From contig NZ_JAQZAN010000005.1 in assembly GCF_028737255.1 (NCBI RefSeq), forward strand, positions 186,001-250,000: a stretch of DNA of 64,000 nucleotides, read 5' to 3'. The stretch is from Actinomycetospora straminea. Lineage in GTDB: Bacteria; Actinomycetota; Actinomycetes; Mycobacteriales; Pseudonocardiaceae. Below the pieces are notes generated by a model that was not told where the DNA came from, made no database searches, and was given only the letters and a program-made list of their open reading frames with translations. Positions 13,933-47,191 of this stretch are shown in pieces. How positions within the stretch are numbered: the first letter of the stretch is position 1; each line of letters starts with the position of its first letter. A program made the translations under genes and the position numbers.

Positions 13933-13984
13933 GACCGCGTCGACCAGGGCCTCTACCCGCAACGACGTCCTCGCAGGACATCAC
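13933..13984. repeat. tRNA-Ala att-like repeat, copy A (arm only)
   Basis: About 50 bp matching the non-tRNA arm of the repeats at 16.5, 32.2 and 36.4 kb (shared core GACCAGGGCCTCTAC, then CGACGTCCTCGC). It has no tRNA-derived part. It ends at the stop codon of the response regulator gene. I read it as the most eroded member of the family. Confidence 0.6.
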
Positions 13985-14667
13985 GAGGGGTCGGGCGGAT
14001 CGACGAGGTGGTTCTGGTAGGCGATGACGACGAGCTGGGCCCGGTCGTGGGCGCCCACCTTGACCATCGCCCGCCCGACGTGGGTCCGCACGGTGGCCCG
14101 ACTGATCGTGAGCGCCTCCGCGATGTCCTCGTTGCTCAGTCCGTGGGCGACGAGTCCGACGATCTCCCGCTCGCGTGCCGTGAGCTGGTCCAGGACCGCG
14201 TGGTCGACACGGGGGGTTCCCGGACGATCGACGAGGCGTGCCACGAGGCGGCGCGTCAGCCCCGGGGACAGCAGGGCCTCACCTCCGGCGACGACCCGGA
14301 TCCCGTGGAGGAGCTGGCGGGGTTCGGTGTTCTTGACCAGGAAGCCGGCGGCTCCGACGCCGAGGGCCTCGATGACGTACTCGTCGTGGTCGAACGTGGT
14401 GAGGACGAGGACGTGGACACCGGCCAGCGCGGGATCGGCGGTGATCTCGCGGGTGGCCGCGAGCCCGTCGACCCCGGGCATCCGGATGTCCATGAGCACG
14501 ACGTGGGGACGGGTCCGGCGTGCGAGCGCGACCGCGGCCTCGCCGTCCCCCGCCTCGCCGACGACGGTCATCCCGGGCTCGGCGTCGATCAACACACGGA
14601 AGCCGCCCCGGACCAGCGCCTCGTCGTCGGCGATCAGCACCCGAAGAACGTCGTCGGTGGACGTCAC
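13981..14667 (-). CDS. NarL/LuxR-family response regulator
   Basis: A 228-residue DNA-binding response regulator. The receiver domain has the acidic pair Asp14-Asp15, phospho-acceptor Asp60 (LMDIRMPG), Thr90 and Lys112. The C-terminal LuxR helix-turn-helix spans about residues 158-222 (LTAREREIVGLVAHGLSNEDIAEAL). Its GTG start overlaps the stop codon of the upstream histidine kinase gene (GTGA), so the pair is translationally coupled. The likely target is the divergent small membrane protein at 16081 and its own promoter. The stop codon lies within repeat copy A. Confidence 0.93.
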   Translation of the reverse strand: MTSTDDVLRVLIADDEALVRGGFRVLIDAEPGMTVVGEAGDGEAAVALARRTRPHVVLMDIRMPGVDGLAATREITADPALAGVHVLVLTTFDHDEYVIEALGVGAAGFLVKNTEPRQLLHGIRVVAGGEALLSPGLTRRLVARLVDRPGTPRVDHAVLDQLTAREREIVGLVAHGLSNEDIAEALTISRATVRTHVGRAMVKVGAHDRAQLVVIAYQNHLVDPPDPS

Positions 14668-15839
14668 CGGACCTCCGGGACCGGGAGCTCCGCGCAGACC
14701 TCGAAGCCGCCGTCGGGGTGCGGGCCGGCCGTCAGCGAACCGGCGAGCGCGCGGGCGCGCTCACGCATGCCGTCGATGCCCTGTCCCCAGCCGTCGGTCG
14801 GCGGATGCGCGGTGCCGTCGTCCCGGATGCGGAGGGTCAGCCGGGGAGGCCGGTGCTCCACCGCCAGCCACACGGTGTGGGCCCCGGCGTGGCGGATCAC
14901 GTTGGTGAGCGCCTCCTGGACGATCCGGTAGGCGGCCAGGTCGACGGGGACCGGCAGCGGTCGTCGGTCGCCACTCATGTCGAGATCGACGCGGAGCCCG
15001 GCGTCCTCGGCGGTCTCGACGAGCGAGGGCAGCCGGTCGAGCCCCGAGGACTGCTCGACCTCTCCGCTCTCGGTGCGCAGGGCCCCGAGAACCGCCTTCA
15101 CGTCGGTCAGGCCGGTGTCGCAGATGCGCTTGATCGCCGCGAGGGCCTCCCCGGCCTGGCCGGGGCGCTGCTCGAGGACGTGAAGACCGACGCCGGCCTG
15201 CACGCTGATCGTCGCCATCGAGTGTCCGACCACGTCGTGCAGCTCCCGCGCGATGCGCAGCCGCTCCTCGGCGATCAGGCGGCGGGTCCGCTCCTCGCGG
15301 AACGAGGTCTCCCTCGCGAGCTCGGCACGCGTGCTGGCCAGCAGGGCCCGGTAGTAGCCGACGGCCGCGCCCGCGCTCCCCGCGGTGGCGGCGAGCAGGA
15401 CCGCCATCGGCACCACGCCGACGGTCGCGACATCCCCGAGGACGACGCGGATCGCCAGGATCTGGACCCCGGCCGTGAGCGCCGCGCCCGCCAGGCCCCA
15501 GCGCCAGCCACGGTCCGCGGCGAGGGCGTAGCAGCCGAGCAACGGAGCCAACGCGACGAGCCGCCCGGGATAGGGCCCGACGAACCAGAGGACGACGACC
15601 GCGTCGAGCCCGGCGAGCGCCGCGACCGGGTATCGGTGCCGGATGCCGACCGCGGCGGCCAGCGCCGCCGCGAGAGCGAACGCTCCGACGTCGAGCGCGC
15701 GGGCATCCGTCGTCGACACCGGGCCGATCCCCGCGAGCGCGGCGACGAGGACCACCGCGGCCACCGTGACGCCGAGACCCACGTCGACCACCGCCCGTGC
15801 CGGGCACCGACGCGCGGCCCCGAGCGCGGTGTCGCCCAT
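14664..15839 (-). CDS. Sensor histidine kinase (HisKA_3 / NarX-DesK type)
   Basis: A 391-residue membrane kinase pairing with the response regulator that follows it. About five hydrophobic segments fill residues 15-165. The dimerisation box carries the phospho-accepting His201 (ARELHDVVGHS), and the C-terminal ATPase domain shows an N-box-like VIRHAGAH and GQGIDGMRERA. There is no clear extracellular sensor domain, so it may sense membrane state, like DesK or LiaS. I chose ATG 15839 because GGGGAGG lies just upstream; the longer open frame to 16115 adds 92 residues of non-hydrophobic, unconserved sequence that would overlap the divergent promoter region. Confidence 0.92.
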   Translation of the reverse strand: MGDTALGAARRCPARAVVDVGLGVTVAAVVLVAALAGIGPVSTTDARALDVGAFALAAALAAAVGIRHRYPVAALAGLDAVVVLWFVGPYPGRLVALAPLLGCYALAADRGWRWGLAGAALTAGVQILAIRVVLGDVATVGVVPMAVLLAATAGSAGAAVGYYRALLASTRAELARETSFREERTRRLIAEERLRIARELHDVVGHSMATISVQAGVGLHVLEQRPGQAGEALAAIKRICDTGLTDVKAVLGALRTESGEVEQSSGLDRLPSLVETAEDAGLRVDLDMSGDRRPLPVPVDLAAYRIVQEALTNVIRHAGAHTVWLAVEHRPPRLTLRIRDDGTAHPPTDGWGQGIDGMRERARALAGSLTAGPHPDGGFEVCAELPVPEVR

Positions 15840-16080
15840 CGGTCCGCCTCCCCGCTCGAGCTCGGGGCACGCGTCCCCTCCCTCATCCTGCGCGTCACCG
15901 GGGGAGCACGCGTCCACCCGGGGACGTGCTCCGGCCCCAGCGCTCCCGCCGTAGGTCCTACGTCCAGGAGCCGACCGTACGGCGGGCACGGCAGACCGGA
16001 CAGACGATCGCGAGCCGATGCCGGCGGGGTCCCCGGGCGCGCACTCTCGGCGTCCTGCTCCCGACCTGGAAGGACCCCTG

Positions 16081-16431
16081 ATGCTCCACGATGTGATCAC
16101 CGCCCTCCGGGGCACGGACTCCCCGATCGCCGGCGCCGGCTACGAGCTCGGCGTGGGGCGGACCGTGCCGACCATCGCGGCGGTGGTGGGACTGGCCGCC
16201 GTGGTCGTGGGTGTGCTGGCCCTGGCTCGCCCGGGCGCGCGTGGCAGGCCCGTCGCGGCCCTGGTGCTCGGGCTGGTCGCCGCGCTCGTGGGCGGGCTGC
16301 ACGCGATGAACGCCGCGGGCGGCCTCGGCACCGGCAACGGTCTGGCCGGGGCCCTCGTCGCCGTGGTCCTGGGGCTGATCGGCGCCGCTCTCGGGGGGCT
16401 CGCCCGCACGCGGTCCCGGTCGTCGGTGTGA
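16081..16431 (+). CDS. Small membrane protein, DUF6223-like
   Basis: A 116-residue protein with three hydrophobic segments (about 22-46, 52-72 and 83-105) separated by short charged turns, resembling the DUF6223 proteins of Streptomyces. The function is unknown. Start ATG 16081 follows GGAAGGA; an upstream in-frame ATG (16018) lacks a ribosome-binding site. It is divergent from the two-component system with about 240 bp between starts, and many DesK/NarX-type systems control an adjacent membrane protein. I infer that it is the regulon target. The family assignment rests on recall of pattern and length only. Confidence 0.65.
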   Translation: MLHDVITALRGTDSPIAGAGYELGVGRTVPTIAAVVGLAAVVVGVLALARPGARGRPVAALVLGLVAALVGGLHAMNAAGGLGTGNGLAGALVAVVLGLIGAALGGLARTRSRSSV

Positions 16432-17014
16432 CCTCGCGCGGGCTCGCCGGGCGGAACGGTTCGACCAGGTCGCCGTCGGGGTCGGCGATCAGGACCCTGT
16501 CGACGGAAGATCACGTCAGTGGATCGTCATCGCAGGTCACACATGGTGGAGACGAAGGGGATCGAACCCTCGACCCCCGCCTTGCAGAGATGGACGATCA
16601 CGCTGTCCAGGGCCTCCACCAGCAACACCGTGCACGACGGCCGTCACTCCGGGCTCCCCAGCAACGATGTGCACCCCGTCTCGTGCCACGAGCCGTGTCA
16701 CGACGGCCGCGGCCCGGCTGGCGAGCCGACGGGTCCTCCTCGCAAGGGGTGGCGATCAGCGCCGGGTGGCACCGGGCCCGCGAGGGGACCGCTTCGGTGA
16801 CGTCGGCGCCGATGCCGTCCCGAACCACGCTCCACTCGTCGACGTTCCCCGGTCCCTGAGCGGGTCATCTCCTCGCGCCACCGAGACGCCGCGGAAGACC
16901 CGGAGGTCAACGGTGTCGGTGTGAACGGCGGCTCGATCTACGCTCTGGGGCAGCGGCGCTCTCGCCGGCGCCGCTCGCGGGCTCGCGCGGAGCGGACTTC
17001 GCAGCCGTGCGGCG
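16432..17014. other. Gene-free stretch containing att-like repeat B
   Basis: No convincing coding region. The only recognisable content is the tRNA-Ala-derived repeat at 16535-16703. The remaining sequence to the phosphatase start at 17015 has no clear promoter or RNA. Short open frames here are translations of the repeat or antisense shadows. Confidence 0.6.
16535..16703 (-). repeat. tRNA-Ala 3'-half remnant fused to att-like arm, copy B
   Basis: Positions 16547-16587 match the 3' half of the intact tRNA-Ala (47119-47191) at about 39 of 41 bases, in the same orientation, from the discriminator base to the anticodon. Beyond the anticodon it switches to a shared ~100-bp arm ending in CGTGCCACGAGCCGTGTCACGA, about 93 bp from the junction. 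The 5' half of the tRNA is absent, so this is not a working tRNA. Displaced tRNA 3' ends of this kind mark the far end of an element integrated into a tRNA gene. Confidence 0.75.
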
Positions 17015-19066
17015 ATGAACTGGAGCGAGATGTCGGACCGCGAGGACGAGCTGCGGCGCAGCGTGGGGGACGCCGAGGAGGTGCGCGCGGCGTTCGAGGA
17101 CCTGCCGCTGATGATGGCAGCGATGGACGGCCCGGAGCTGAGGTTCGTGGCGGCGAACGCGGCCTATCGGGCTCTGGCCGGAGGGTCCGCATTCATCGGT
17201 GAGCCGCTGCGCGGGGTCTTCCCCGAGGTCGGCGGGCAACAGGTCTTCGAAGCGGTCGAGCGCGTCTACGCCACCGCCGAGCCCTACTCGATGCACGAGT
17301 GGCGGATGCAGTTCGGGATCGACGACAGTGGGCAGCCCAAAGAGCTGTACCTCGACGTCCACCTGGTGCCGCGCTTCACGGCCGGGGGAGAGAAGCGCGG
17401 GGTGGTCGGCTACATCACCGACGTCACGGCGCTGGTCATGGCGCGGCTCGCCGCACAGAGCAAGGCTGCCGAGGTCGAGCGCCGTTACGAGCAGGCGCGC
17501 GACGTGATCGCGTTGCTGCAGCGGGAGCTGCTCTCGCCTGGACTGCCGGTGCTCCCGGGGCTACGGGTCGCTGCCAGCTACCTGCTCGCCGACGCCGACA
17601 CCGCCGCGGGCGGCGACTGGTTCGACGCACTGCCACTCTCCGACGGCCGCGTGGGGCTGGTCGTCGGTGACGTCGTCGGGCACGGGGTCGCGGCGTCGGC
17701 GGTGATGGGACAGCTCCGCGCGATCGCGGCCGAGCGGCTCCACAGCGGCGCGAACCTCCCCGATGCGCTGGCCGCGCTCGACGCCGCCGCCGGCCGGATC
17801 CCGGGCGCGCGAGCAGCGACCGTGTGCGTCGTCGTGCTGTATCCGGCCTCCGGCGCCGTGTCCTACTGCACCGCCGGGCACCCGCCGCCGCTGGTCGTCC
17901 CCGTGTCGAACGAACCCCGGTACCTGCCCACCTCCGGGGCGGGCCCGCTGGGCACCGGGTCGGGGTTCCCGCTGGCCCAGGCCACCCTCGAGGTCGGGGA
18001 CGTGCTGCTGTGCTACACCGACGGGATCATCGAGCGGCCCGGCCGAGCGCGTGCGGCCAGCGGCGCGGAGCTCTCCCGGGTCGCCGCGGACGCGGCCGCT
18101 GGGCGTGGCCTGCGCACCGGCGAGTTCTCCGCGGTCGAACGGGTGTGCACCCACACCCTGGAGCTGTTGGTGCGCGCGACCGGACACAGCGACGACATCA
18201 CCCTGCTGGCCGTCCAGCGCCGCGAGCCCCTTCCGCCGCTGGAGGTGAGGCTGACCGCGGAGTACGGCGCCATCGGAGTCCTGCGCACACGGTTGCGCAC
18301 CTGGATCGCCGAACTGGGGGTGAGCCCGGACGATCTCTTCCGCGTGACGCACGCGGTGAACGAGCTGGTCACCAACGCCGTCGACCACGCCTATCCCCGC
18401 CGCGGCCCCATGTGGATGCGGGCCAGCGTGGACACCACCGGGACGCTGCACGCCTCGGTCACCGACCTGGGCCGGACGCCCGGCACGGCCGACCTGATCA
18501 GCGTCGACGACCTCGCCGCGATACCGTCGCATCTCGAGCGTGGCCGGGGGTTGGCGATGAGCCAGCGGCTGGTCGACGTCCTCGAACTCGAGCAGGCCGA
18601 ACCCGGCATGACCGCGCGCATCGCCCACCGGCTCTCCCGCCCGGCGCGGCTGCTGATCGCCGACGACGTACGCGGCGCCCCGTCGCCCGTCCCGGCACCG
18701 GGCGCACCAGCTGAGTTCCTGTTGATCCTCGACGAGCCCTCGCCGCGGGGCCCGCGCATCCGCCTCGCCGGACCCGTCGATGCCGAGACCGCCACCAAGC
18801 TGCGCACCGAGCTCGCCCGCCGCACCGCCAGCCACACCCATACCCTCACCGTGGACCTGAGCGAGGTGACCCTGCTCGCCAGTGCCGGCGTCGCCGCGCT
18901 GGCCGCCGCCCGCGCGGCAGCCCCTGCCGACACGCTGCAGCTGTACGCGCCGGCGGGCAGCGAGGCCGACCAGGTCCTGACCCTGGTCGGGTTCGAGCAC
19001 ACCACCAGCGACCCGGACCGGATCGAAGCCTCCGACGGCGGCGGGGCGGCGACCGGTCCGAGCTAG
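17015..19066 (+). CDS. PAS-PP2C-HATPase-STAS multidomain signalling phosphatase
   Basis: A 683-residue protein that joins a whole partner-switching pathway in one chain. A PAS-like sensor occupies about residues 25-130, and a SpoIIE/RsbU PP2C phosphatase about 170-400 (GGDWFDA, VGDVVGHGV, CYTDGI, HSDDITLL). An RsbW-like ATP-binding kinase domain lies at about 405-545 (NELVTNAVDHAY is the N-box) and a STAS anti-sigma-antagonist domain at about 565-665 (LSEVTLLASAGVAAL, with the usual Ser position). It probably governs a sigma factor or another PP2C/STAS circuit; no sigma factor is next to it. Start ATG 17015 is uncertain: ATG 17030 has GGAGCGAG directly before it. Confidence 0.9.
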   Translation: MNWSEMSDREDELRRSVGDAEEVRAAFEDLPLMMAAMDGPELRFVAANAAYRALAGGSAFIGEPLRGVFPEVGGQQVFEAVERVYATAEPYSMHEWRMQFGIDDSGQPKELYLDVHLVPRFTAGGEKRGVVGYITDVTALVMARLAAQSKAAEVERRYEQARDVIALLQRELLSPGLPVLPGLRVAASYLLADADTAAGGDWFDALPLSDGRVGLVVGDVVGHGVAASAVMGQLRAIAAERLHSGANLPDALAALDAAAGRIPGARAATVCVVVLYPASGAVSYCTAGHPPPLVVPVSNEPRYLPTSGAGPLGTGSGFPLAQATLEVGDVLLCYTDGIIERPGRARAASGAELSRVAADAAAGRGLRTGEFSAVERVCTHTLELLVRATGHSDDITLLAVQRREPLPPLEVRLTAEYGAIGVLRTRLRTWIAELGVSPDDLFRVTHAVNELVTNAVDHAYPRRGPMWMRASVDTTGTLHASVTDLGRTPGTADLISVDDLAAIPSHLERGRGLAMSQRLVDVLELEQAEPGMTARIAHRLSRPARLLIADDVRGAPSPVPAPGAPAEFLLILDEPSPRGPRIRLAGPVDAETATKLRTELARRTASHTHTLTVDLSEVTLLASAGVAALAAARAAAPADTLQLYAPAGSEADQVLTLVGFEHTTSDPDRIEASDGGGAATGPS

Positions 19067-19249
19067 AGGACCTGGCGTTCCGGACTGGTTGGCCCGCGGA
19101 TCGTCAGGACACCGGCGCGCAACAACACCGCTGATGAGCACTGTCGTCAAACCGTCGTTCTCCACCTGCGACGGGTGGTCGCTCGGGACGTGCCCGCGTT
19201 CCGGGAGTTCTACGACCAGGAGTCATACCCACCTCGGCTCGCGTCTCGT

Positions 19250-19879
19250 TCACTGCGCCGCGGCGACGAGCTTCACGAGTGTGTCGGCGAGTTCGTCGAG
19301 AGCACGCTCCCGCGCATCGCTCTCCAGCCCGCCGCACCACAGCGGTGCCTGGGCCATCGCGGCGTGCATGCACTGCAGCGTCGTCTCCAACCCGGTGACC
19401 GCGAACTCCCCGGAAGCGAGGCCCTCCTCGAGGACGCCGCGGAACACCTGGTCGTGGCGCCGGCGAAGTTCCTTGATGCGCTCGCGCGGGTCATCGGGCC
19501 AGGTGCTCGGCACGAGGAAGAGCCGTAGCGCGGCCGGGTACTCGCCGACGGCGATGGCGACGTGCTCACGGATGAGGGCCCGCAGCCGTTCGTGGGGCGG
19601 GCCCTCGGCGGTCGCGGCCAGCCGCTCGAGCCGCCCGGTCCAGTCGGCGCCGAGCGTCTCGATCGCCGCCACGGCCAGCTCGTCCTTGCCGGGGAAGTAG
19701 TAGTAGAGCGACCCCTTGGTGACGTCGAGCCGTTCGGCGACGTCGTCGAGGCTCACCGCGTCGTACCCGCGCTCGCCGAACAGCTCGGCGGCCGTGGAGA
19801 GGATTTCCTGGACCCGGCGTCCCCGCTTGCGCTGCACACGGCCGACCGGCGCAGCGTCCTCCACCGGCTGACTGCTCAT
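19250..19879 (-). CDS. TetR-family transcriptional repressor of the acyl-CoA operon
   Basis: A 209-residue regulator with an N-terminal helix-turn-helix (about 20-65; LDDVAERLDVTKGSLYYYFPGKDEL) and a helical ligand-binding C-terminal domain. I chose ATG 19879 because GAGGAGGG lies 4 nt upstream; the longer frame from 19927 would begin inside the operator. It is divergent from the ten-gene operon starting at 20007. The 127-bp intergenic region is unusually AT-rich and holds two inverted repeats that fit TetR operators. FadR/KstR-like TetR regulators of such operons respond to acyl-CoA esters; the ligand here would be a pathway CoA thioester, by inference. Confidence 0.92.
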   Translation of the reverse strand: MSSQPVEDAAPVGRVQRKRGRRVQEILSTAAELFGERGYDAVSLDDVAERLDVTKGSLYYYFPGKDELAVAAIETLGADWTGRLERLAATAEGPPHERLRALIREHVAIAVGEYPAALRLFLVPSTWPDDPRERIKELRRRHDQVFRGVLEEGLASGEFAVTGLETTLQCMHAAMAQAPLWCGGLESDARERALDELADTLVKLVAAAQ

Positions 19880-19926
19880 CGGCCCTCCTCGTCCATGCCC
19901 CACAGTATCGCGATCATTAACTTCCA

Positions 19927-19963
19927 AGTCAAATCTTGACTACTATATTGACTCTCGGGTCAA
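19927..19963. promoter_or_regulatory. Two tandem TetR operator candidates
   Basis: AGTCAAATCTTGACT (19927-19941) is a perfect inverted repeat with 6-bp arms and a 3-nt centre. TTGAC-N6-GTCAA (19948-19963) is a second one sharing the TTGAC/GTCAA half-sites. Both lie in the AT-rich gap between the divergent tetR gene and the acyl-CoA dehydrogenase operon, where repressor binding would block both promoters. Confidence 0.7.
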
Positions 19964-20006
19964 AGTTTGCCACGGTCGTCAATCAGACACACCGAAGGGG
20001 CACCCC

Positions 20007-21167
20007 ATGGACTTCGAGCTCACCGAGACGCAGCGCGAGTACCGCGACCGTGCTCGCGGCATCGCCGAGAAGGAGCTGCTGCCCGGCTACCGGGCGCGGG
20101 AGCGCAGCGGGCGCATCGACCCCGAGCTCCGCCGTGAGATCGGCCGGCTCGGCCTCATCGCGCCGGAGCTGCCGACAGAGCTCGGTGGCCGAGGTCTGGA
20201 CCGGCTCACCGCCGGCGTGGTCACCGAGGAGATCGGCCGGGGCGACATCAACGTCGCCTACCTGCAGGTCGTCGGGTCGCTGGTCGGCCAGATCCTCGCC
20301 GGCAACGCGACGCCGGAGATCGCTCAGGCGTGGGTACCGCGGATCTGCGCCGGAGAGGAGATCGTCGGGATCGGGCTGACCGAGCCGCAGGCGGGGTCGG
20401 ACGCGGGCATGCCTGCGCTCACGGCCCGCCGCGACGGCTCCGGGGAGGACGCCGACTGGGTGCTCGACGGCGTGAAGTCCCTGTCGTTCGCCGGGGAGGC
20501 GGCGGCGGTCGTCGTGTTCGCCCGGACCGGACCATCACCGTCCCGGGGCAAGGACATCAGCGCCTTCCTGGTACCGCTCGACGCACCCGGAGTCTCTCGC
20601 GAGCCGTACTCCGACATGGGCACCACGGCGGTCGGCCGGGGAGCGGCCCACCTCGACGGGGTGCGCATCCCCGCCGACCACCTCCTGGGCGCGGAGGGCC
20701 GGGGCTTCACCCAGGTGATGCAGGGGTTCGATTTCAGCCGCGCCCTCATCGGGCTGCAGTGCCTCGGGTGCGCGCAGCAGACCGTCGACGAGACGTGGCG
20801 CTACGTGGGCGAGCGCACCGCGTTCGACCGTCCGCTGAGCAAGAACCAGGGCGTGGCGTTCCCGCTGGCCGAGGCCGAGACGCTGCTGTCGGCGGCGCGG
20901 CTGCTGTGCCTGCGGACGCTCTGGCTCAAGGACGTCGGCCGGCCCCACACCGCGGACGCCGCGATGAGCAAGTGGTGGGCCCCGAAGACCGCCTACGACG
21001 TCATCAACCAGTGCCTGTTGCTGCACGGCCAGTACGGCTACCGCACCGAGCTCCCCATCGAGCAGCGACTGCGCGACGTGCTCGGGCTGCAGATCGGCGA
21101 CGGCACCGCACAGATCATGAAGCTCGTCATCGCCCGGCAGTACCTGGGCCGCGAGCTCGCACCGTGA
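20007..21167 (+). CDS. Acyl-CoA dehydrogenase, candidate cyclohexanecarboxyl-CoA dehydrogenase
   Basis: A 386-residue FAD enzyme introducing an alpha,beta double bond into a CoA thioester. The family signatures VGIGLTEPQAGSDAG and the C-terminal four-helix region are present. The usual catalytic-base motif YEGT reads GDGT, so the base is probably Asp365 rather than Glu. It is the first gene of the TetR-controlled operon and is followed at 35 bp by a BadH-like alcohol dehydrogenase. By position and family it would carry out the AliB step (cyclohexanecarboxyl-CoA to cyclohexenecarboxyl-CoA). That substrate is an inference; a branched-chain acyl-CoA is possible. Start ATG 20007 follows GAAGGGG. 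Confidence 0.85.
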   Translation: MDFELTETQREYRDRARGIAEKELLPGYRARERSGRIDPELRREIGRLGLIAPELPTELGGRGLDRLTAGVVTEEIGRGDINVAYLQVVGSLVGQILAGNATPEIAQAWVPRICAGEEIVGIGLTEPQAGSDAGMPALTARRDGSGEDADWVLDGVKSLSFAGEAAAVVVFARTGPSPSRGKDISAFLVPLDAPGVSREPYSDMGTTAVGRGAAHLDGVRIPADHLLGAEGRGFTQVMQGFDFSRALIGLQCLGCAQQTVDETWRYVGERTAFDRPLSKNQGVAFPLAEAETLLSAARLLCLRTLWLKDVGRPHTADAAMSKWWAPKTAYDVINQCLLLHGQYGYRTELPIEQRLRDVLGLQIGDGTAQIMKLVIARQYLGRELAP

Positions 21168-21202
21168 CGACACCAACTCTCGAGGAAGGACCAGGAACAG
21201 CC

Positions 21203-21949
21203 ATGGGCAAGCTGCAGGACAAGATCACGATCGTCACCGGGGCGGGACAGGGCATCGGGCGAGGTATCGCCGAGAAGCTCGCCTCCGAGGGCGCCACGGT
21301 CGTCGTCACCGACATCAACGAAGCGACGGCCAAGGAGACCGCCGACGCCCTGGGCGGAGTCGCGGTCGGGCTGCACACCGACGTCACCTCCCGCGAGTCG
21401 GTGGACGCGATGGTCGCCCAGGCCCACCAGCGGTTCGGGCGGATCGACGTCCTGGTCAACAACGCGGGCTGGGACAAGGCGGGGCCGTTCGTCGACTCCG
21501 ACCCCGCCGACTGGGACCGGGCCATCCAGATCAACCTCTACGGCGTCCTGAACACCTCCAAGGCCGTACTCCCGATCATGGCGGAGCAGGGCTCGGGTTC
21601 GGTGGTCAACCTCGCCTCCGACGCGGGTCGGGTCGGGTCTGCGGGTGAGGCGGTGTACTCCGCGGCCAAGGGCGGGGTCATCTCGTTCACCAAGACCACC
21701 GCGCGGGAGATGGCCCGCCACCAGGTCAACGCCAACTGCGTGTGCCCCGGTCCGACCGACACGGCCCTGTTCGCCTCTGTCGTCGAGGGCAACCCGAAGC
21801 TGCGCGACGCCCTGATCAAGGCGATCCCGCTGCGCCGGCTCGCGCAGCCGGCCGATCTCGCCAACGCCGTCGCGTTCCTCGCCTCCGACGAGGCCGCCTA
21901 CATCACAGGTCAGACGCTGTCGGTCAGCGGCGGCCTGTCCATGAGCTGA
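21203..21949 (+). CDS. SDR-family dehydrogenase resembling BadH (2-hydroxycyclohexanecarboxyl-CoA dehydrogenase)
   Basis: A 248-residue short-chain dehydrogenase with the NAD-binding motif TGAGQGIG (12-19), NNAG (86-89), and catalytic Ser139, Tyr152 and Lys156. Phrases such as NNAGWDK, SDAGRVGSAGEAVY, CPGPTDTALF and ITGQTLSVSGGL closely parallel Rhodopseudomonas BadH as I remember it; BadH oxidises 2-hydroxycyclohexane-1-carboxyl-CoA to the 2-oxo form. This is the main clue that the operon breaks down alicyclic acids. Start ATG 21203 has AGGAAGG and AGGAAC upstream. The 3-hydroxyacyl-CoA dehydrogenase at 23964 could share or replace this step for open-chain intermediates. Confidence 0.87.
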   Translation: MGKLQDKITIVTGAGQGIGRGIAEKLASEGATVVVTDINEATAKETADALGGVAVGLHTDVTSRESVDAMVAQAHQRFGRIDVLVNNAGWDKAGPFVDSDPADWDRAIQINLYGVLNTSKAVLPIMAEQGSGSVVNLASDAGRVGSAGEAVYSAAKGGVISFTKTTAREMARHQVNANCVCPGPTDTALFASVVEGNPKLRDALIKAIPLRRLAQPADLANAVAFLASDEAAYITGQTLSVSGGLSMS

Positions 21950-23958: not shown

Positions 23959-23963
23959 CGACG

Positions 23964-39691: not shown

Positions 39692-40306
39692 ATGGAACTC
39701 GACCCCCGCACGACCGCCGTGGTGGCCGTGCACATGATCAACGACGTCGTCACCCACGAGGGCGCCTTCGGGCAGTTCTTCGGCGAGGGCGTGGAGCGCG
39801 GGCAGATCATCCGCCAGGTCGGCCGGCTGCTCGACGCCGCACGCGGCGCCGGCGCCACCCCGGTCTACACCCGCGTGGTGTTCAAGCCTGGTCACCCCGA
39901 CCTCGTCGTCAACTGCCCGCTGCTCGGCGTCGTCGCCCAGACCGGCGCGGTCGAGGACGGCAAGCCCGGAGCCGAGATCGTCCCCGAGCTCACTCCGCAG
40001 GCCGGCGAGCACGTCGTCGACCACCAGCGCCTCACCGGCTTCCACGGCACCGAGCTCGACGTCCTGCTGCGCGGCAAGGGCATCACGACCGTCGTGCTCG
40101 CCGGTGTCGCCACCAACGTCTCGGTCGAGGGCACCGCCCGCGAGGCAGTCAACCTCGGCTACCGCACCATCGTCGTCTCCGACGCCTGCTCCGCGGCCTC
40201 CGATGAGGCCCACCAGGCCACCCTCGACACCTTCGGCCTGCTGGGCGAGGTCGTCACGGTCAACGAGGTCGAGGCGGCGCTGGAGAGGGCGGCGGTGCCG
40301 GCGTGA
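39692..40306 (+). CDS. Isochorismatase-fold protein with a replaced Asp-Lys-Cys triad
   Basis: A 204-residue protein with the fold landmarks of cysteine hydrolases (AVVAVHMINDVV, RLTGFHGTELDVLL, VLAGVATNVSVEGTAR). All three catalytic positions differ: the Asp of the usual DxQND strand is His14, the Lys before the xxxSAF segment is His111, and the nucleophilic Cys of ATNVC is Ser144. The gene is otherwise intact, with a start at 39692 after AGAAAGAGG and coupling to the next gene (GTGA), so it looks maintained. It may be a non-catalytic partner, or use Ser/His chemistry. Its substrate is not predictable. Confidence 0.85.
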   Translation: MELDPRTTAVVAVHMINDVVTHEGAFGQFFGEGVERGQIIRQVGRLLDAARGAGATPVYTRVVFKPGHPDLVVNCPLLGVVAQTGAVEDGKPGAEIVPELTPQAGEHVVDHQRLTGFHGTELDVLLRGKGITTVVLAGVATNVSVEGTAREAVNLGYRTIVVSDACSAASDEAHQATLDTFGLLGEVVTVNEVEAALERAAVPA

Positions 40307-41175
40307 CCGCAGCGGACACCGAGAAGCTCTCCATCTGGAACACCCTCAAGCTCGTCCCGCACACGGTGCGGTGGGTCCAGGTCGGCGACTGGGACACCCG
40401 TGTCCTCGAAGCCGGTCAGGGCAACCCGGAAGCGCTCGTGCTCATGCACGGCACCGGTGGGCACCTCGAGGCCTACACCCACAACATCGCCCGCTTCGCC
40501 GAGCGCTACCACGTCATCGCCTACGACTTCCCCGGTCACGGCGGCACGACTCACGCCAAGGTCGACCTCGAGCTCGACACCTACGTCGAGCACCTCGCCG
40601 GACTACTCGACGAGCTGGGTGTCGAGAAGGCCCACCTGAATGGGGAGTCCCTCGGCGGCTGGGTGGCGATCAAGTTCGCCGCCGCCCACCCGCAGCGGGT
40701 GGCCAAGAGCGTGCTCAACACCCCGGGCGGCACCATGGCCACCCCCGAGGTCATGGAGCGCATCCGCAGCCTGTCCCAGGCCGCGGCCGACGACCCGACC
40801 CCTGAGCAGGTGCGGGCCCGGCTCGAGTGGCTGATGGCCGACAACGCCACCGTCACCGACGAGCTCGTCGACGTCCGACGCACCCTCTACGCCCGCCCCG
40901 GCTACGCCGAGTCCGCCCGGCACATCCTGTGCCTCCAGGACCCCGACATTCGCCGCCGCAACATGGTCACCGACGAGGACCTCGCCGCCGTGCCCGGACC
41001 GACCCTCGTGGTCTGGACCAGCGACGACCCGTCCGGACCGGCCAAGACCGGCATGGACATGGCCGAGAAGATCCCTGACGCACGGTTCGAGGTCATCACC
41101 GGGGCCGGCCACTGGCCCCAGTGGGAGCAGTCCGAGCACTTCACCGACCTCGTCCTGGCGTTCCTCGAGGACTGA
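40303..41175 (+). CDS. mhpC: Alpha/beta hydrolase, MhpC-like meta-cleavage product hydrolase
   Basis: A 290-residue serine hydrolase that cleaves the C-C bond of the ring-fission product, releasing 2-hydroxypenta-2,4-dienoate and an acid. The nucleophile elbow GESLGG, oxyanion region LMHGTGGH and catalytic His in GAGHWPQWE are visible; the acid is probably in VVWTSDDPSGP. Operon order (dioxygenase before, hydratase after) matches mhp/hpp-type pathways. The start GTG 40303 is coupled to the isochorismatase-like gene. Confidence 0.88.
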   Translation: MTAADTEKLSIWNTLKLVPHTVRWVQVGDWDTRVLEAGQGNPEALVLMHGTGGHLEAYTHNIARFAERYHVIAYDFPGHGGTTHAKVDLELDTYVEHLAGLLDELGVEKAHLNGESLGGWVAIKFAAAHPQRVAKSVLNTPGGTMATPEVMERIRSLSQAAADDPTPEQVRARLEWLMADNATVTDELVDVRRTLYARPGYAESARHILCLQDPDIRRRNMVTDEDLAAVPGPTLVVWTSDDPSGPAKTGMDMAEKIPDARFEVITGAGHWPQWEQSEHFTDLVLAFLED

Positions 41176-41259
41176 CCAGGACCCGCCCGTCCCCGGTCGC
41201 TCCACACCGGGGACTGGCCGCGCCGGTCCCACCCGATATCTGTCAGGAAGGACGCCTCG

Positions 41260-42141
41260 GTGTCGTCCCCCAGCTCCGCCGCGCATGTCGACCAGGCCGC
41301 CGTCCTGGACGCGGCCGCCCGACTGATCTCGGCCGCCGACGAGCGCCGGCCGTGCCCGCCGGTGCGCGACCTGATCGGGCGCGACGACGTGCGCGCCGCC
41401 TACGCGGTCCAGAGCGTCCTCCACGAGCGCGCACTGGCTGCCGGACGGCGCGTCGCGGGCCGCAAGATCGGTCTCACCGCGCCGGCCGTCCAGGCCCAGC
41501 TCGGAGTCGATCAGCCCGACTTCGGCGTGCTCTACGCCGACATGGACGTCACCGCCGACGCCACGCGCAGCGGCGTGGAGACCACGAGGCTGCTGCAACC
41601 CAAGATCGAGGCCGAAGTCGCGTTCGTGCTGGCAAAGGACCTGCACAGCCCCACCGCGGACGGGACCTTCCGAGCCGAGGAGCTGGCCGACGCCATCGCC
41701 GCGGTGGTCCCGGCGCTGGAGATCGTGGACTCTCGCGTAGCCGGGTGGGACATCTCCTTCGGGGACACGGTCGCCGACAACGCTTCGTCCGGGCTCTACG
41801 TGCTCGGCACTGACCGTGCAGAGCCTGACCTCTTTGGGCCCGACCTCGACGCCGGCCTCGCCGCAGTGTCGATGACCATGATGCGCGGCGACGCGGCCGA
41901 TGCGGAGCAGGTCTCCGCCGGACACGGCGCCGACTGCCTGGGCAGCCCGCTCCGGGCACTGGCCTGGCTCGCCAGTACGGCCGTCCGCTTCGGCGACCCG
42001 CTGCGCGCCGGCCAGGTAGTCCTCGCCGGCGCCCTCGGACCGATGGTGCCGGTCGCCGCCGGCGACACCTTCCGGGCCGACATCACCGGCCTGGGCTCCG
42101 TCGCCGCCCGCTTCACCCCCTCCTCCCGGGAGCACTCATGA
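41260..42141 (+). CDS. mhpD: 2-keto-4-pentenoate hydratase
   Basis: A 293-residue member of the 2-oxopent-4-enoate hydratase family that adds water to 2-hydroxypenta-2,4-dienoate to give 4-hydroxy-2-oxopentanoate. The segments [36 protein letters not shown] (acidic metal ligands) and [17 protein letters not shown] are characteristic. GTG 41260 follows AGGAAGGA. It is about 20 residues longer at the N-terminus than E. coli MhpD. Overlaps the next gene by ATGA. Confidence 0.92.
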
Positions 42142-43112
42142 CCACCACGAAGGTCGCCATCATCGGCTCGGGCAACATCGGCTCCGATCTCATGCTCAAG
42201 ATCGTTCGGCTCTCCGAGAAGCTCGAGGTCGCGGCACTGGTCGGCATCGACCCCGACTCCGACGGACTCGCCCGGGCCCGGCGCCTCGGCATCGCCGCGG
42301 TCGACACCGGCGCGCAGGGGCTCGTCGAGCTCGAGGGCTTCGACGACATCGACATCGTCTTCGACGCCACGTCCGCCAAGGCGCACGTCGCCAACGCCGA
42401 GCTGCTGCACCCGCACGGCAAGCGCCTGGTCGACCTGACGCCCGCGGCGATCGGCCCCTACGTCGTGCCGCCGGTGAACCTCGAATCGCTGGTCGACGCC
42501 GGAGACGTCACCGACGTCAACATGGTGACCTGCGGCGGCCAGGCCACGATTCCGATCGTCACTGCGATCTCCTCGGTGGCCCCGGTGCCGTACGCCGAGA
42601 TCGTCGCGTCGATCGCCTCGAAGTCCGCCGGCCCCGGCACCCGGGCGAACATCGACGAGTTCACCGAGACCACCGCGGCCGCGATCGAGCACGTCGGCGG
42701 CGCGGAGCGCGGCAAGGCGATCATCGTCCTCAACCCCGCCGACCCGCCGCTGATCATGCGCGACACGGTGCTCTGCCTCGTCGGCGACGCCACGAACCCG
42801 CCGGATGAGCAGGTCCTCGCCGCGGAGATCACGGCAGCGGTCGAGGCGATGGTCAAGACCGTCGCCGAGTACGTGCCCGGCTACCGCCTCAAGCAGGCCG
42901 TCCAGGTCCGGCCCGTCCCCGACGACCAGGCCCTGCACACGCTCATCGGCGAGCACGCCGCCTCCGAGCACCGCCCGACCCACCAGGTGTCGGTGTTCCT
43001 CGAGGTCGAGGGCGCCGCGCACTACCTCCCGGCCTACGCCGGCAACCTCGACATCATGACCTCGGCCGCCCTGCGCGTCGGCGAGGAACTCGCCACCCGG
43101 AGCGCCTCATGA
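42138..43112 (+). CDS. mhpF: Acetaldehyde dehydrogenase (acetylating)
   Basis: A 324-residue enzyme converting acetaldehyde, NAD+ and CoA to acetyl-CoA. The N-terminal Rossmann motif reads [10 protein letters not shown] and the catalytic Cys132 is in [12 protein letters not shown]. It normally forms a channelling complex with the aldolase encoded next. Coupled by ATGA overlaps on both sides. Length and motifs match MhpF/BphJ/DmpF. Confidence 0.95.
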
Positions 43113-44143
43113 GCACCCCGAACCTCTACGTCCAGGACGTGACCCTGCGGGATGGCATGCACGCCATCCGCCACCGCCTCGCCCCCGAGACCGTCGGCAC
43201 CATCACCCGCGCCTTGGCCGACGCCGGCGTCGACGCCATCGAGGTCTCCCACGGCGACGGGCTCGCCGGCGCGAGCCTGACCTACGGGCCCGGCTCGAAC
43301 ACCGACTGGGAATGGATCAGCGCCGCGGCCGAGGCGATCGACGCCGCCGAGAACAGCCCGGTGCTGACCACGCTGCTGCTGCCCGGCATCGGCACCATCG
43401 CCGAGCTGCGTCGCGCCTACGACCTCGGGGTGCGCTCGGTACGGGTCGCCACCCACGCCACCGAGGCCGACGTCGCCGCCCAGCACGTGGCCACCGCCCG
43501 CGAGCTGGGCATGGACGTCTCCGGCTTCCTCATGATGAGCCACATGGCTCCCGCCGAGGAGCTCGCCCGGCAGGCCAAGCTCATGGAGTCCTACGGCGCC
43601 CACTGCGTCTACGTCACCGACTCCGGCGGCCGCCTCACCATGGACGACGTCCGCGACCGCATCCGCGCCTACCGCGACGTCCTCGAGCCGGTCACCCAGA
43701 TCGGCATCCACGCCCACGAGAACCTCTCGCTCTCGGTCGCCAACTCCGTCGTCGCCGTCGAGAACGGCGTCACCCGCGTCGACGCCTCCCTCGCCGGTCA
43801 AGGCGCCGGCGCCGGCAACTGCCCGATCGAGGCCTTCGTCGCCGTCGCGAACATCCACGGCTGGACCCACCGCTGCGACCTGTTCGCCCTGCAGGATGCC
43901 GCCGACGACCTCGTTCGCCCGCTGCAGGACCGGCCGGTGCGTGTCGACCGCGAGACGCTGACCCTCGGCTACGCGGGCGTCTACGGCAGCTTCCTGCGCC
44001 ACGCAGAGAACGCCGCCGCCCACTACGGGCTCGACACCCGCGACATCCTCGCCGAGATCGGACGGCGCGGGCTCGTCGGCGGCCAGGAAGACATGATCGT
44101 CGACGTCGCGCTCGACCTCGTGACCGAGCGGGGTGCCGCATGA
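43109..44143 (+). CDS. mhpE: 4-hydroxy-2-oxovalerate aldolase
   Basis: A 344-residue Mn-dependent class II aldolase of the DRE-TIM family splitting 4-hydroxy-2-oxopentanoate to pyruvate and acetaldehyde. The N-terminal [13 protein letters not shown] carries the catalytic Arg and metal-binding Asp; [10 protein letters not shown] supplies metal-binding histidines; and [14 protein letters not shown] is conserved. The communication domain follows ([26 protein letters not shown]). Coupled to both neighbours by overlapping start and stop codons. Confidence 0.95.
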
Positions 44144-44817
44144 CGGCACAGATCGACCCGACGACGCTCACCGTCGGGGTGCTGGGCGGCACCGGCGCCC
44201 AGGGCAAGGGCCTGGCCCTGCGCTGGGCTTGTGCCGGCATCAGCGTCGTCATCGGATCCCGCGACGCCGGTCGCGCCGAGGTCGCCGCCAAGGAGTACCG
44301 CGAGGCCACCGGTGTCGACCACGTTCGGGGCACCGACAACGCCACCTGCGCCGCCGAGTCCGACGTCGTGCTCGCCGCGATCCCGTGGGAGTCGCACGCC
44401 GAGACGCTGCGCAGCCTGGCTGCACCACTAACGGGCAAGATTCTTGTCGACTGCGTCAACCCGATCGGGTTCGACAAGAAGGGTCCGTACCCGCTGCCGG
44501 TCGAGGAGGGCAGCGTCGCCCAGCAGGCCGAGCACCTCCTTCCGCAGTCCCGGGTCACGGCGGCGTTCCACAACGTCTCGGCGGTGCTGCTCGCCGACCT
44601 CGAGCAGTCCGAGGTCGACTGCGATGTCCTCGTCCTGGGCGACGACCGCGACGCCACTGACGTCGTCCGCGCCCTCGCCGACGCCATCCCCGGCATGCGC
44701 GGGATCTACGGCGGGCGGCTGCGCAACGCCTACCAGGTGGAGTGCCTGACCGCGAACCTCATCGCGATCAACCGCCGCTACAAGGTCCACGCCGGCATCA
44801 AGATCACCGACCTCTGA
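44140..44817 (+). CDS. npdG: NADPH:F420 oxidoreductase
   Basis: A 225-residue F420-dependent NADP reductase: Rossmann motif [17 protein letters not shown], followed by SRDAGRAE at the end of strand 2, which suits NADP(H) rather than [31 protein letters not shown] and [14 protein letters not shown] are further family signatures. It supplies F420H2 from NADPH. Inside a catechol meta-cleavage operon this is unexpected and links to the LLM-class protein at 38581. The name follows the picrate-degradation genes of Rhodococcus/Nocardioides; 'fno' is an equal alternative. ATG 44140 overlaps the aldolase stop codon. Confidence 0.9.
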
Positions 44818-44880
44818 GCTGCGACGCCATCAGCGCCGCGCCACCTCCGAAGACCTCCTCGAGCACGACCTGGAGACGTC

Positions 44881-46761
44881 ATGTCAACGCCAGCCACCAC
44901 TCCCAGCACCTACACCGGCCGACTGCCCCAGGGCGCCCTCACCTCCGAGGCACCCGGCGCCCGCGTCGTCGCCGGACCGGACGCGGACGGCTTCGACACC
45001 GACGTCCTGGTCATCGGCACCGGACCCTTCGGCATCGCCACCGCTCTCGCCCTGGCCACCTACGGCATCCGGGTCCGCACGGTCACCCGCTGGAACTGGG
45101 TCGCCAACGGCCCCCGCGCCCACATCACCAACCAACGCACCCTCGAGGTCCTGCGCGACCTCGGCGTCGAGCAGGAGGCGCTCAAGCACGCCACCCCGTG
45201 GGAGCTGATGGGCGACACCCTGTTCGCGAGCAGCCTCACCGGCGACGAGATCGCCCGGCTGCGCACCTGGGGCACCGGCGACGAGCGCCACGGCGACTAC
45301 GTCCTCGGCAGCCCCTGTCCGCTCGCCGACATCCCGCAGCCCTACATGGAGCCCGTGCTGGTCGCCGCGGCCGCGGAGCGGGGCTGCGTCTTCGACTTCA
45401 ACACCGAGTACTGCGGCCTCGACCAGGACGACGACGGCGTCACCGTGCACCTCGCCAACGCCCTCGACGGACGCATCTACGACCTGCGCGCCCGTTATGT
45501 CGTCGGCGCCGACGGCGCACGCTCCCAGGTCGTCGCCGACCTCGACCTGCCCATCGAGGGCACCATCGCCCGCGCCGGCACCCTCTACACCCGCTTCCGC
45601 GCCGACCTCTCACGTCACGTCGAGCACCGGCCGAGCATCCTGCACTGGTTCATGCGCCCCGGCGCCAGCTTCGGCGAGATCGGCATGGGCCTGCTGCGCG
45701 CCATCCGCCCGTGGGACGACTGGATCGCCGGCTGGGGCTACGACATGGCCGACGGCGACCCCGACACCGACCCCGAGCGCGTCACCGCCAAGATTCGCGA
45801 GCTGATCGGCGACCCCGACCAGGACATCGAGATCGTGTCCTGCGCGCCCTGGTACGTGAACCAGGCCAACGTCACCCAGTGGTCGAAGGGCCGCGTGTTC
45901 TGCGGCGGCGACGCCGTGCACCGCCACCCACCGTCGAGCGGGCTGGGCTCCAACACGTCGATCCAGGACGGCCACAACCTGGCCTGGAAGCTCGCCTACG
46001 TCGTCCGCGGCTGGGCCAGACCCGAGCTGCTCGAGACCTACAACGACGAGCGCCGCCCCGTCGGCGAGCAGATCGTCGCTCGCGCCAACAAGTCGCGCGT
46101 CGACTACGCCCCGCTCAACGAGTGCTTCCGCACCGAGGGCGAGGCGGACCCCATCGCCGCCGGACTCGCCAAGCTGCGCGACCCCTCCCCGGCTGGCGTC
46201 GAGGTGCGCGCTGCGCTCACCGAGGCCCTCGAGCTCAAGAACCACGAGTTCAACGCTCAGGGCGTCGAGCTCAACCAGCGCTACACCTCCACCGCCGTCG
46301 TTCCCGATCCCGATGCCGCCCCGGAGGAGTGGCCTCGGGACCCCGAGCTCTACCTGCAGGCCACGACCAGGCCGGGCGCCAAGGTTCCGCACACCTGGCT
46401 GGTCGACGCGCGCGGACGGCGCACCTCGACCCTTGATGTCACTGGGCACGGCCGGTTCAGCCTGCTCACCGGATTCGCCGGGCAGGCGTGGGTCGCCGCG
46501 GTCCGCAAGCTCGACCTGCCGTTCCTCGACGCGGTCGTCGTCGGCGCCAAGGGGACCGAGGACCCCTACCGCGGTTGGGACCGCCTGCGTGAGGTCCACG
46601 AGGCCGGCGCCGTCCTCGTGCGACCCGACGGGTTCGTCGCCTGGCGGCACCTCGACGCCCAGTGGGACGACGACGACGCGCAGCGGGCGCTCGAGGACGC
46701 CCTTCACCAGGTGCTCGGGATCAAGGAGCCGCCGACAGCATCGGGAGCAGGGCCCTCGTGA
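44881..46761 (+). CDS. FAD-dependent phenol hydroxylase, TfdB/MhpA-like
   Basis: A 626-residue class A flavoprotein monooxygenase that would ortho-hydroxylate a phenol to a catechol, feeding the dioxygenase. The FAD motif VIGTGPFG is near 42-49, NGPRAHITNQRTLEVLRDLG follows, VVGADGARS is near 205, and GGDAVHRHPPSSGLGSNTS is near 342-360. The last two segments are closer to 2,4-dichlorophenol 6-monooxygenase (TfdB) than to MhpA. The C-terminal thioredoxin-like domain is present (LVDARGRRTSTLDVTG). This suggests a substituted phenol as pathway substrate. It starts 63 bp after npdG, at ATG 44881 after GGAG, and ends the operon. Confidence 0.9.
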   Translation: MSTPATTPSTYTGRLPQGALTSEAPGARVVAGPDADGFDTDVLVIGTGPFGIATALALATYGIRVRTVTRWNWVANGPRAHITNQRTLEVLRDLGVEQEALKHATPWELMGDTLFASSLTGDEIARLRTWGTGDERHGDYVLGSPCPLADIPQPYMEPVLVAAAAERGCVFDFNTEYCGLDQDDDGVTVHLANALDGRIYDLRARYVVGADGARSQVVADLDLPIEGTIARAGTLYTRFRADLSRHVEHRPSILHWFMRPGASFGEIGMGLLRAIRPWDDWIAGWGYDMADGDPDTDPERVTAKIRELIGDPDQDIEIVSCAPWYVNQANVTQWSKGRVFCGGDAVHRHPPSSGLGSNTSIQDGHNLAWKLAYVVRGWARPELLETYNDERRPVGEQIVARANKSRVDYAPLNECFRTEGEADPIAAGLAKLRDPSPAGVEVRAALTEALELKNHEFNAQGVELNQRYTSTAVVPDPDAAPEEWPRDPELYLQATTRPGAKVPHTWLVDARGRRTSTLDVTGHGRFSLLTGFAGQAWVAAVRKLDLPFLDAVVVGAKGTEDPYRGWDRLREVHEAGAVLVRPDGFVAWRHLDAQWDDDDAQRALEDALHQVLGIKEPPTASGAGPS

Positions 46762-47118
46762 ATCCCGGCCGGAGCCCGCCGGGACCGACAGCCCAGACCG
46801 CGACACAGCTGTCCCCGGCGCCGCTCTCAGCCCAAGGGCCGAGCGCGCCGCCGGGCAAGTCCTCGTCGGCAGCTTGATCGCCTTCGACCTCGTCTTCGTG
46901 CTCGCGACACTGACCAACCCGACGTGGTGGCGGTGGCTCGTGCTGGTCGTGATCGTCGTCGCGCAGTGGCCTTCGCGCACTTCACGCGTCTCTTCCGCTC
47001 GCCGTAGCGCGCTCGAGCTCGCTGGGCGACGTATCGAGCGGAAGAGCACCGCCTCGATTTCGTGCCACGTCCGGGCACGGACGATCACGTACTTGAGCGT
47101 TTTTCAGGTCACAGTGGG
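46762..47118. other. Intergenic region with att-like flank of tRNA-Ala
   Basis: No convincing gene. One frame (about 46850-46990) would encode a short hydrophobic segment, without a good start. Positions 47060-47080 hold CGTGCCACG and an inverted GGGCACG 59 bp from the tRNA end, matching the corresponding flank of repeat D. A run of T at 47099-47104 is on the wrong strand for tRNA termination. Confidence 0.5.
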
Positions 47119-47191
47119 TGGAGACGAAGGGAATCGAACCCTCAACCCCCGCCTTGCAAAGGCGGTGCTCTGCCAATTGAGCTACGTCCCC
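47119..47191 (-). tRNA. tRNA-Ala (anticodon TGC)
   Basis: A complete 73-nt cloverleaf. The acceptor arms GGGGACG and CGTCTCC pair with one G-T wobble, the D-arm reads TAGCTCAATTGGCAGAGCA, the anticodon loop is TTTGCAA, and the T-loop is TTCGATT; the discriminator is A and CCA is not encoded. In actinobacteria tRNA-Ile and tRNA-Ala usually follow gyrA together; here 3.5 kb separates them. Its 3' half recurs at 16.5, 32.2 and 36.4 kb, so it appears to be the parental integration site. Confidence 0.97.

Follow-up and report, generated by a model that had tools for sequence, protein, structure and literature searches.

The DNA analyzed here is a stretch of 64,000 nt from the genome of Actinomycetospora straminea (contig NZ_JAQZAN010000005.1, positions 186,001 to 250,000; C52 in our numbering of contigs), subsequently called the window. 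A tract of 33 kb on the 3′ side of its tRNA-Ala(TGC) gene very probably consists of modules that lack an integrase, are flanked by attachment (att) sites, were inserted at the anticodon loop of this tRNA gene and have moved horizontally as units. We found displaced 3′ halves of the tRNA gene (scars), junctions that are exact to the base, modules shared between species, an excess of identity in these modules and an integrase gene beside the same site in relatives. A preliminary description of the window had proposed stepwise accretion of genomic islands by integration at this tRNA gene, and this proposal is supported by variable arrays, by the exact junctions and by elements in relatives that carry the same sequence arm.

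The intact tRNA-Ala(TGC) gene lies on the minus strand at 47117–47191 according to ARAGORN and at 47119–47191 according to Rfam (71.3 bits); we read it as the attachment site as rebuilt by the youngest module. Pieces of its 3′ half recur on the minus strand as scar B (about 16545–16588, up to the anticodon loop), scar C (32178–32222) and the shortened scar D (36433–36451), all located by sequence match and all oriented like the intact gene with the 3′ end on the left. In scars B and C the tRNA identity stops just beyond the anticodon loop and the same conserved arm of ~110 bp follows, whereas in scar D it stops in the T-loop region and the tRNA piece meets the arm at CGA. The recurrence of the 3′ half in one orientation and its replacement past the anticodon by a common arm, both noted in the preliminary description, are borne out; of the four scars that it counted, B, C and D contain tRNA sequence, but the fourth, A, is an arm only. 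ARAGORN reports scar C as a whole tRNA (32178–32250) and Rfam at the gathering score does not. The idea that the arm hides a tRNA half was discarded: at the gathering score Rfam detects only the intact tRNA-Ala and a tRNA-Ile in the window, and no scar is matched. When the threshold was relaxed, seven weak tmRNA-type matches appeared at 10 scar or arm loci, all below the gathering score; one overlapping match of the same clan is left out of this output.

A model of the arm (R1) was built from 20 arms including those of scars B, C and D. On the plus strand of the window it scores 90.4 bits at 16587–16702 (arm B), 106.9 bits at 32220–32336 (arm C), 91.8 bits at 36448–36557 (arm D) and 41.9 bits at 13933–14005, where arm A is partial and carries no tRNA sequence. 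Since B, C and D belong to the training set and A was left out, arm A is the sole independent test of the model among the arms of the window. A search of the whole genome (6.29 Mb) with scar C yielded seven matches at E ≤ 1e-4, with 40 of 60 initial candidates scored, six of them in the tract and one on contig C27. R1, for which 150 candidates were scored per genome here and in the genus, yielded six matches at E ≤ 1e-3, four in the tract and one each on contigs C27 and C8; after the sixth match the scores fall from 34.5 to 21.4 bits. Chance is excluded as the source of the pattern of scars and arms. Also, these six matches are far from the hundreds of scattered copies that the preliminary description had set against its own model. 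Three arms (L049:11858–11976, L075:17409–17528 and L076:9825–9947) are preceded by a common GAGCACCANC.TGC and not by the tRNA-Ala 3′ half. By eye this sequence resembles the reversed 5′ half of tRNA-Ala, and it possibly represents another attachment core or an inverted use of the near-palindromic anticodon loop.

Arrays of this kind are variable across the genus. Our sample comprised 18 genomes, among them the window genome (G000), A. succinea DSM 45775 (G016), A. chibensis (G003), A. lemnae (G007), A. callitridis (G001) and A. endophytica (G006); in G011 and G015 the assembly is incomplete, with contigs of about 5 kb around the tRNA. The scar query matches the tRNA region in all 18 genomes, and nine (G000, G001, G003, G004, G007, G008, G012, G013 and G016) carry one or more scars or arms to the 3′ side of this gene, in G013 as a tRNA half with an arm stub only. 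Numbers and positions of the scars differ among the nine carriers, so that the scars are not fixed in all relatives, contrary to the other outcome that the preliminary description had named against itself. R1 matches anywhere at E ≤ 1e-3 were found in 12 of the 18 genomes and at this threshold not in G002, G005, G009, G011, G014 and G017; G006, G010 and G015 have weak matches only (22 to 39 bits), on other stretches. In A. succinea, module D of the window (see below), two further modules and an integrase-bearing element share one tRNA gene. The outermost A. succinea scar (C3:449314–449399, L050) holds two tRNA-Ala 3′ halves about 63 bp apart, as if one more insertion had been almost fully lost. 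In A. lemnae, two arms, one of them with a tRNA half, enclose about 8 kb with a 1346-aa open reading frame (ORF) at C26:504333–512528 (L075); this segment lies about 480 kb from tRNA-Ala and is oriented like the tRNA. At chimeric scars composed of a 3′ half and an arm ARAGORN calls phantom tRNA-Ala genes, one in the window, three in G016, two in G003 and one each in G001 and G004.

The scars and arms delimit modules A (13984–16496), B (19222–32177), C (32337–36432) and D (36558–47116), and three of them recur in other species. Module D matches G016:C3:449435–460007 with 95.3% nt identity over 10.6 kb (36455–47040 in the window); the copy in G016 sits between two scars at the end of the array farthest from the tRNA, while the window copy adjoins the tRNA. 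Module B adjoins the intact tRNA in two genomes, with identities of 97.9% (19222–31669) and 90.6% (31893–32222) in G008 and of 95.4% (19222–31844) and 90.4% (31840–32222) in G004. Strains missing single modules with exact scar boundaries, which the preliminary description had asked for, are thus represented by G008 and G004, where module B runs directly into the intact tRNA gene; the window would be expected to have looked like this prior to the arrival of C and D. Module A is 92.1% identical to G003:C22:292160–294675, on the same contig as the G003 array and to its left, and no arm is detectable at that copy. For module C we found relatives of 86–88% identity at other places in G007, G003 and G005, and the comparison gives no sign of a recent transfer to the tRNA. 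At the junctions homology covers the tRNA half as far as CCGCCT(T/C)GCAAAG, where the sequences part: one genome goes on into GCGGTGCTC of the intact tRNA and the other into the next arm.

Core genes to the right of the tRNA have diverged much more at 4-fold degenerate sites than the shared modules have. Module B reaches 94.8% with G008 (2475 sites) and 89.0% with G004 (2425 sites), compared with 68.2% (566 sites) and 63.4% (610 sites) for core genes; the values are 88.9% (1941 sites) versus 68.9% (485 sites) for module D with G016 and 87.0% (501 sites) versus 65.1% (558 sites) for module A with G003. We conclude that A, B and D therefore moved between species as units. An ancestral array inherited vertically with species-wise loss of modules would agree with the finding that half of the genomes searched (9 of 18) have scars at this tRNA, but we regard it as very improbable: the 4-fold identity of A, B and D lies 20–27 points above that of the neighboring core, the module order differs (D is nearest to the tRNA in the window and farthest from it in G016), and G007, the closest by core genes among the eight relatives compared (94.3% nt), has none of modules A, B and D at its tRNA-Ala. 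On the 4-fold sites together with the module order we rejected vertical inheritance with loss.

No PF00589 match at E ≤ 1e-5 was found on the contig of the window, in agreement with the earlier remark that no integrase is left. Among the module proteins scanned with Pfam there was no integrase or relaxase family, nor is there a PF00589 match on the stretches of B in G008 and of D in G016. Related species do carry the enzyme at this site. In G016, G003, G001 and G007 the distance from the end of tRNA-Ala to the start of a tyrosine integrase gene, transcribed in the same direction, is about 90 bp, and the same arm marks the far ends of these four elements, 25 to 86 kb away; mobile elements with an integrase beside tRNA-Ala, which the preliminary description had proposed to look for with the arm, thus exist in four relatives. 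The integrases of G003, G001 and G007 are 85–89% identical to the G016 protein, compared with at most 62% in other genomes of the genus; the window genome encodes relatives of 54% and 49% identity, both on other contigs. Partial tRNA copies can be generated by duplication, and the scars could in principle be tRNA pseudogenes from local duplication or slippage without any integration. This is the least probable of the explanations that we weighed, as the core at which the copies break off is also where the shared modules end, as a conserved arm follows, and as this arm is found at the ends of elements with an integrase in four relatives.

All four elements encode a TrwC relaxase and a type IV secretion system (T4SS) coupling protein. 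An FtsK/SpoIIIE translocase and Rep, as in actinomycete integrative and conjugative elements (AICEs), were not detected among the element proteins scanned, which have the TrwC/coupling-protein set instead. The G016 element also encodes a single-stranded DNA-binding protein (SSB) and an IrrE-type peptidase, and the cargo of the G003 element includes an HMA-domain P-type ATPase, a multicopper oxidase and antiporter subunits. Near the arm end of the A. succinea element an ATP-dependent DNA ligase and an extracytoplasmic function (ECF) sigma factor are encoded (L051:17486–19716). Two elements, G001:C3:18742–22244 and G003:C22:329781–335342 in the region concerned, are 93–95% identical over most of their length and differ in the genes just inside the arm end, a spot that is likely a cargo site. 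In A. endophytica a different integrase occupies the same tRNA-Ala (C9:1457548–1466618, L068); its element is 9 kb long and has a displaced tRNA half but no arm. Furthermore, contig C27 of the window genome holds a related element beside tRNA-Lys(TTT) (21730–41989; L049, L089, L090) with an arm and a GntR-type integrase, the relative of 54% identity; over about 7.5 kb it shares 80% identity with the element of A. succinea. Besides the arms, blastn between the window and the elements of the relatives returned no common backbone piece of at least 300 bp at 80% identity or more. A phage or plasmid origin of the integrase found no support, since the G016 protein had no match among plasmids at E ≤ 1e-30 or phages at E ≤ 1e-20.

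The integrase belongs to a wider family. We collected 80 loci (the best 80 of 239) from Pseudonocardia, Amycolatopsis, Micromonospora, Lentzea, Kribbella and other genera. A tRNA gene on the same strand ends upstream of the integrase within 500 bp in 75 and within 250 bp in 74 of these loci, with many isoacceptors represented. Of the 80 members, 36 were scanned with Pfam, and every one of these combines PF00589 with a C-terminal GntR domain. The spacers between tRNA and integrase at 74 loci have in common CGTGg..c.a..CGTGg.gCGA, a repeat with a period of 12 bp. This twin-repeat motif scores 23.6 bits, whereas 20 shuffles averaged 6.7 bits and never exceeded 7.2 bits; the expectation-maximization (EM) search was seeded with the motif seen by eye for real data and shuffles alike. 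When the window plus 20 kb (84 kb) was scanned with the resulting matrix, the three best matches fell into the arms, each on the minus strand: arm B at 16680–16702 (25.7 bits), arm C at 32314–32336 (23.8 bits) and arm D at 36535–36557 (23.6 bits). The fourth match, left of scar C, reaches 14.8 bits. In G016 the five best matches are its five junctions. On the other side of the core a single CGTGNCACG is found at 47061–47069, ~50 bp from the 3′ end of the tRNA. The twin repeats probably serve the integrase as arm-type sites to either side of the core. A reading of CGTGNCACG as a palindrome was dropped, given that many other loci have direct repeats like CGTGGAGC...CGTGGAGC. Unlike the full arm, the shorter twin-repeat motif generalized to integrase loci of other genera: near the 80 loci R1 gave 13 matches at E ≤ 0.1, mostly weak. 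In 390 genomes of the family at least 122 had an R1 match at E ≤ 1e-3, a rough count obtained with nine candidates scored per genome.

Each module very probably arrived by tyrosine-integrase insertion at the anticodon loop, from an incoming circle that carried the core and the 3′ half of the tRNA gene. Its insertion would rebuild the tRNA on the right and leave the old 3′ half on the left, as a scar ahead of the incoming left arm, because each circle brought a core and a 3′ half of its own. Module D, the rightmost, would then have arrived last. Most likely the insertions were made by a tyrosine integrase like those beside the same tRNA in the four sister species. Between species the modules may travel by mobilization in cis, together with an integrase-bearing element stacked beside them, as cis-mobilizable elements (CIMEs) do; we consider this route probable and rank it above the two others that we weighed, and the stack in G016, with module D, two more modules and an integrase element, is of the kind that mobilization in cis needs. 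Alternatively, the modules could be satellites on whose att sites the integrase, and the relaxase, of an element elsewhere acts in trans, without stacking. Module B is found in three genomes and in each its contig stretch is free of PF00589, and GntR-type integrases do reside elsewhere in the window genome; but one of these, on C27, adjoins tRNA-Lys, so that its specificity is probably different, and we hold the trans route to be unlikely.

Several observations weigh against the proposed history and concern, first of all, the left ends of the modules. Left arms of the same module are identical at 82 of 104 positions for D (window and G016) and 90 of 111 for B (G008 and G004), while the right ends are identical at 316 of 348 (D) and 277 of 284 (B). 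Left arms of 79–81% beside right ends of 90.8–97.5% do not fit pure circle integration, because a circle carries arm and body together. Part of this contrast could reflect fast-changing att DNA, as in D the last 110 bp ahead of the tRNA half show raised divergence too (83/102). In addition, D has a short non-homologous spacer after its arm, and in the window a 2.5 kb SpoIIE-type segment, missing there in G008 and G004, separates arm B from module B. The core is intact in neither scar D nor arm A. These features suggest that left ends were also altered by something beyond circle integration, such as deletion, homologous exchange between arms or re-capture. Homologous recombination between repeated scars after DNA transfer could have spread the modules, with site-specific integration only in the distant past. 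The decoupling of left arms (79–81%) from bodies (95–98%) would agree with this, and the scars offer stretches of 100–180 bp with about 71–91% identity. Against it, the identity on the right side shifts exactly at the anticodon-loop core, the neighboring core genes were not transferred and the spacer of D behind the arm is non-homologous; we consider this explanation unlikely, a little more so than the trans route, yet more probable than an ancestral array or pseudogenes.

Further points on the same side of the balance come from the relatives and from the repeat motif. A strain of the same clade in which tRNA-Ala directly adjoins the DNA left of 13.9 kb, of the kind that the preliminary description had suggested looking for, was not found; that flank is itself mosaic. 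A search of 297 family genomes, with at most two candidates scored per genome, located near-identical copies of B only in G008 and G004 (98 and 96%) and of D only in G016 (96%), none of them within an integrase-bearing element. VirB4 (Pfam) had no match among the element proteins scanned (12 of G016, 11 of G003 and two each of G001 and G007), and therefore the elements may be mobilizable only and not self-transmissible. Among the 74 training loci of the repeat matrix are the four tRNA-Ala integrase loci of Actinomycetospora (L140, L141, L142, L185), together with a few others from this genus, so the training set is not fully independent. The tRNA-side repeat of the window is a half only and scores below 8 bits as a twin repeat, the repeat in the G008 arm is weak (15.0 bits), and the matrix scan of G013 has no junction among its matches.

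The gene content of the modules was read from a home-made codon-usage gene caller and Pfam. Module A encodes a LuxR-type response regulator, a histidine kinase and a DUF6223 protein (Pfam, blastn). Between arm B and module B lies the extra segment (16704–19221) with a gene for a SpoIIE/HATPase/STAS protein (17030–19066). Module B contains a TetR regulator and an operon for acyl-CoA metabolism of the beta-oxidation type. The name 'alicyclic acid' operon given to it earlier is unsupported, with cyclohexanecarboxyl-CoA models far under their cut-off (TIGR03207, 135 of 575 bits), and an alicyclic substrate of this module is unproven. Module C encodes a short-chain dehydrogenase/reductase (SDR), a small SgcJ/SnoaL-like protein (weak match) and a protein with an O6-methylguanine-DNA methyltransferase (MGMT) DNA-binding domain; for 'alkylation repair' there is one PF01035 match (35679–36116), but two adjacent ORFs have no Pfam match and the name is over-specific. 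In module D a GntR/FCD regulator accompanies a meta-cleavage set of LigB dioxygenase, luciferase-like protein, isochorismatase, hydrolase, fumarylacetoacetate hydrolase (FAH), acetaldehyde dehydrogenase, aldolase, F420 oxidoreductase and FAD monooxygenase. To the boundaries of the preliminary description an extra one has to be added near 19.22 kb, because module B starts there in G008 and G004 and lacks the SpoIIE-type gene. Left of the array, the window contains a LysX-type lysyl-tRNA synthetase/lysylphosphatidylglycerol (LPG) synthase gene (8977–12390) with 86–89% 4-fold identity in G008, G012, G013 and G016, where core genes show 68–70%; judged by this excess it may be an older module with a lost scar.

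We compared the tract with known systems as described in the papers cited. As in tRNA islands, a direct repeat of the 3′ part of the tRNA is present at the far end of the inserted DNA; the integrase gene that would adjoin the tRNA is missing from contig C52 and present in G016, G003, G001 and G007. The core flanks module B in G008 and module D in G016 at either end (attL and attR), and no integration or transfer genes were found in them. Erosion is seen at scar D of the window and, in G004 as well as in the window, at the left end of B. Several units stacked with a related integrase element are seen in G016, while the window array has no such element, and arms are common to modules and elements. 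The best class appears to be tandem accretion of integrase-less, att-flanked, CIME-like islands, a kind already known, here in a new group. CIMEs have lost integration and transfer genes and kept attL and attR, and tandem structures form when another element integrates beside them (PMC5704250). The likeness to CIMEs and tandem accretion of the ICESt1-related type lies in att-flanked units without integration and transfer genes, stacked with integrase-bearing relatives (PMC5704250); the present tract differs in its target, the tRNA-Ala anticodon loop of an actinobacterium, and transfer in cis is our interpretation.

In pattern and cargo type the ssrA islands of Dehalococcoides are the nearest analogue, being tandem, strain-variable islands with repeats of an RNA gene 3′ end and catabolic cargo; 15 of them have no integration module (PMC3146451). 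They differ in their serine recombinase, in the tmRNA target and in a 15 bp motif beside the repeat, where the present tract has the ~110 bp arm (PMC3146451). PAISt of Streptomyces is likewise actinobacterial and modular with a tyrosine recombinase; it excises in modules via one internal and two flanking repeats, and its relatives are fixed by erosion (PMC4057263). However, its target is the 3′ end of bacA, and it has two modules and 674 kb (PMC4057263). Accretion of AICEs at a Streptomyces tRNA-Arg, with several elements and a remnant at one tRNA in a strain-variable manner, is also similar, but those elements have traB, whereas here the elements encode TrwC and a T4SS coupling protein and no transfer genes were found in the catabolic modules (PMC9513070). 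Tandem AICEs at tRNA genes are mentioned in a survey of actinobacterial integrative and conjugative elements (PMC3218068). Tycheposons resemble the tract as tRNA-bounded cargo islands with a tyrosine recombinase; they are known from marine and freshwater bacteria and are likened here by their description in PMC10872708 only. In the literature on Actinomycetospora genomic islands and on GntR-type tyrosine integrases that could be covered, which leaves most subscription papers aside, we found no report of the array or of the pairing of integrase and repeat.

What is new, then, is a known accretion process in a new group, Actinomycetospora, at single-base resolution. One practical consequence is that annotation pipelines may list scars as extra, phantom tRNA-Ala genes. 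Tentatively, integrase-less modules (bodies of 2.5–13 kb) with a replaceable left arm may be the normal unit of exchange in this genus and not dead relics; the tRNA-Ala locus, which lies near gyrA, would then work as a rack of cassettes that GntR-fused integrases read via twin 12-bp arm sites. The arm model, the twin-repeat motif and the GntR-type integrase together provide a search key for such arrays in other Actinobacteria. Since a single site serves every event, the question of which integrase moves the integrase-less cargo lends itself to direct testing. The arrays are a multi-species, base-exact record of how catabolic gene sets were added singly at one tRNA gene, with the same set at different positions of the stack.

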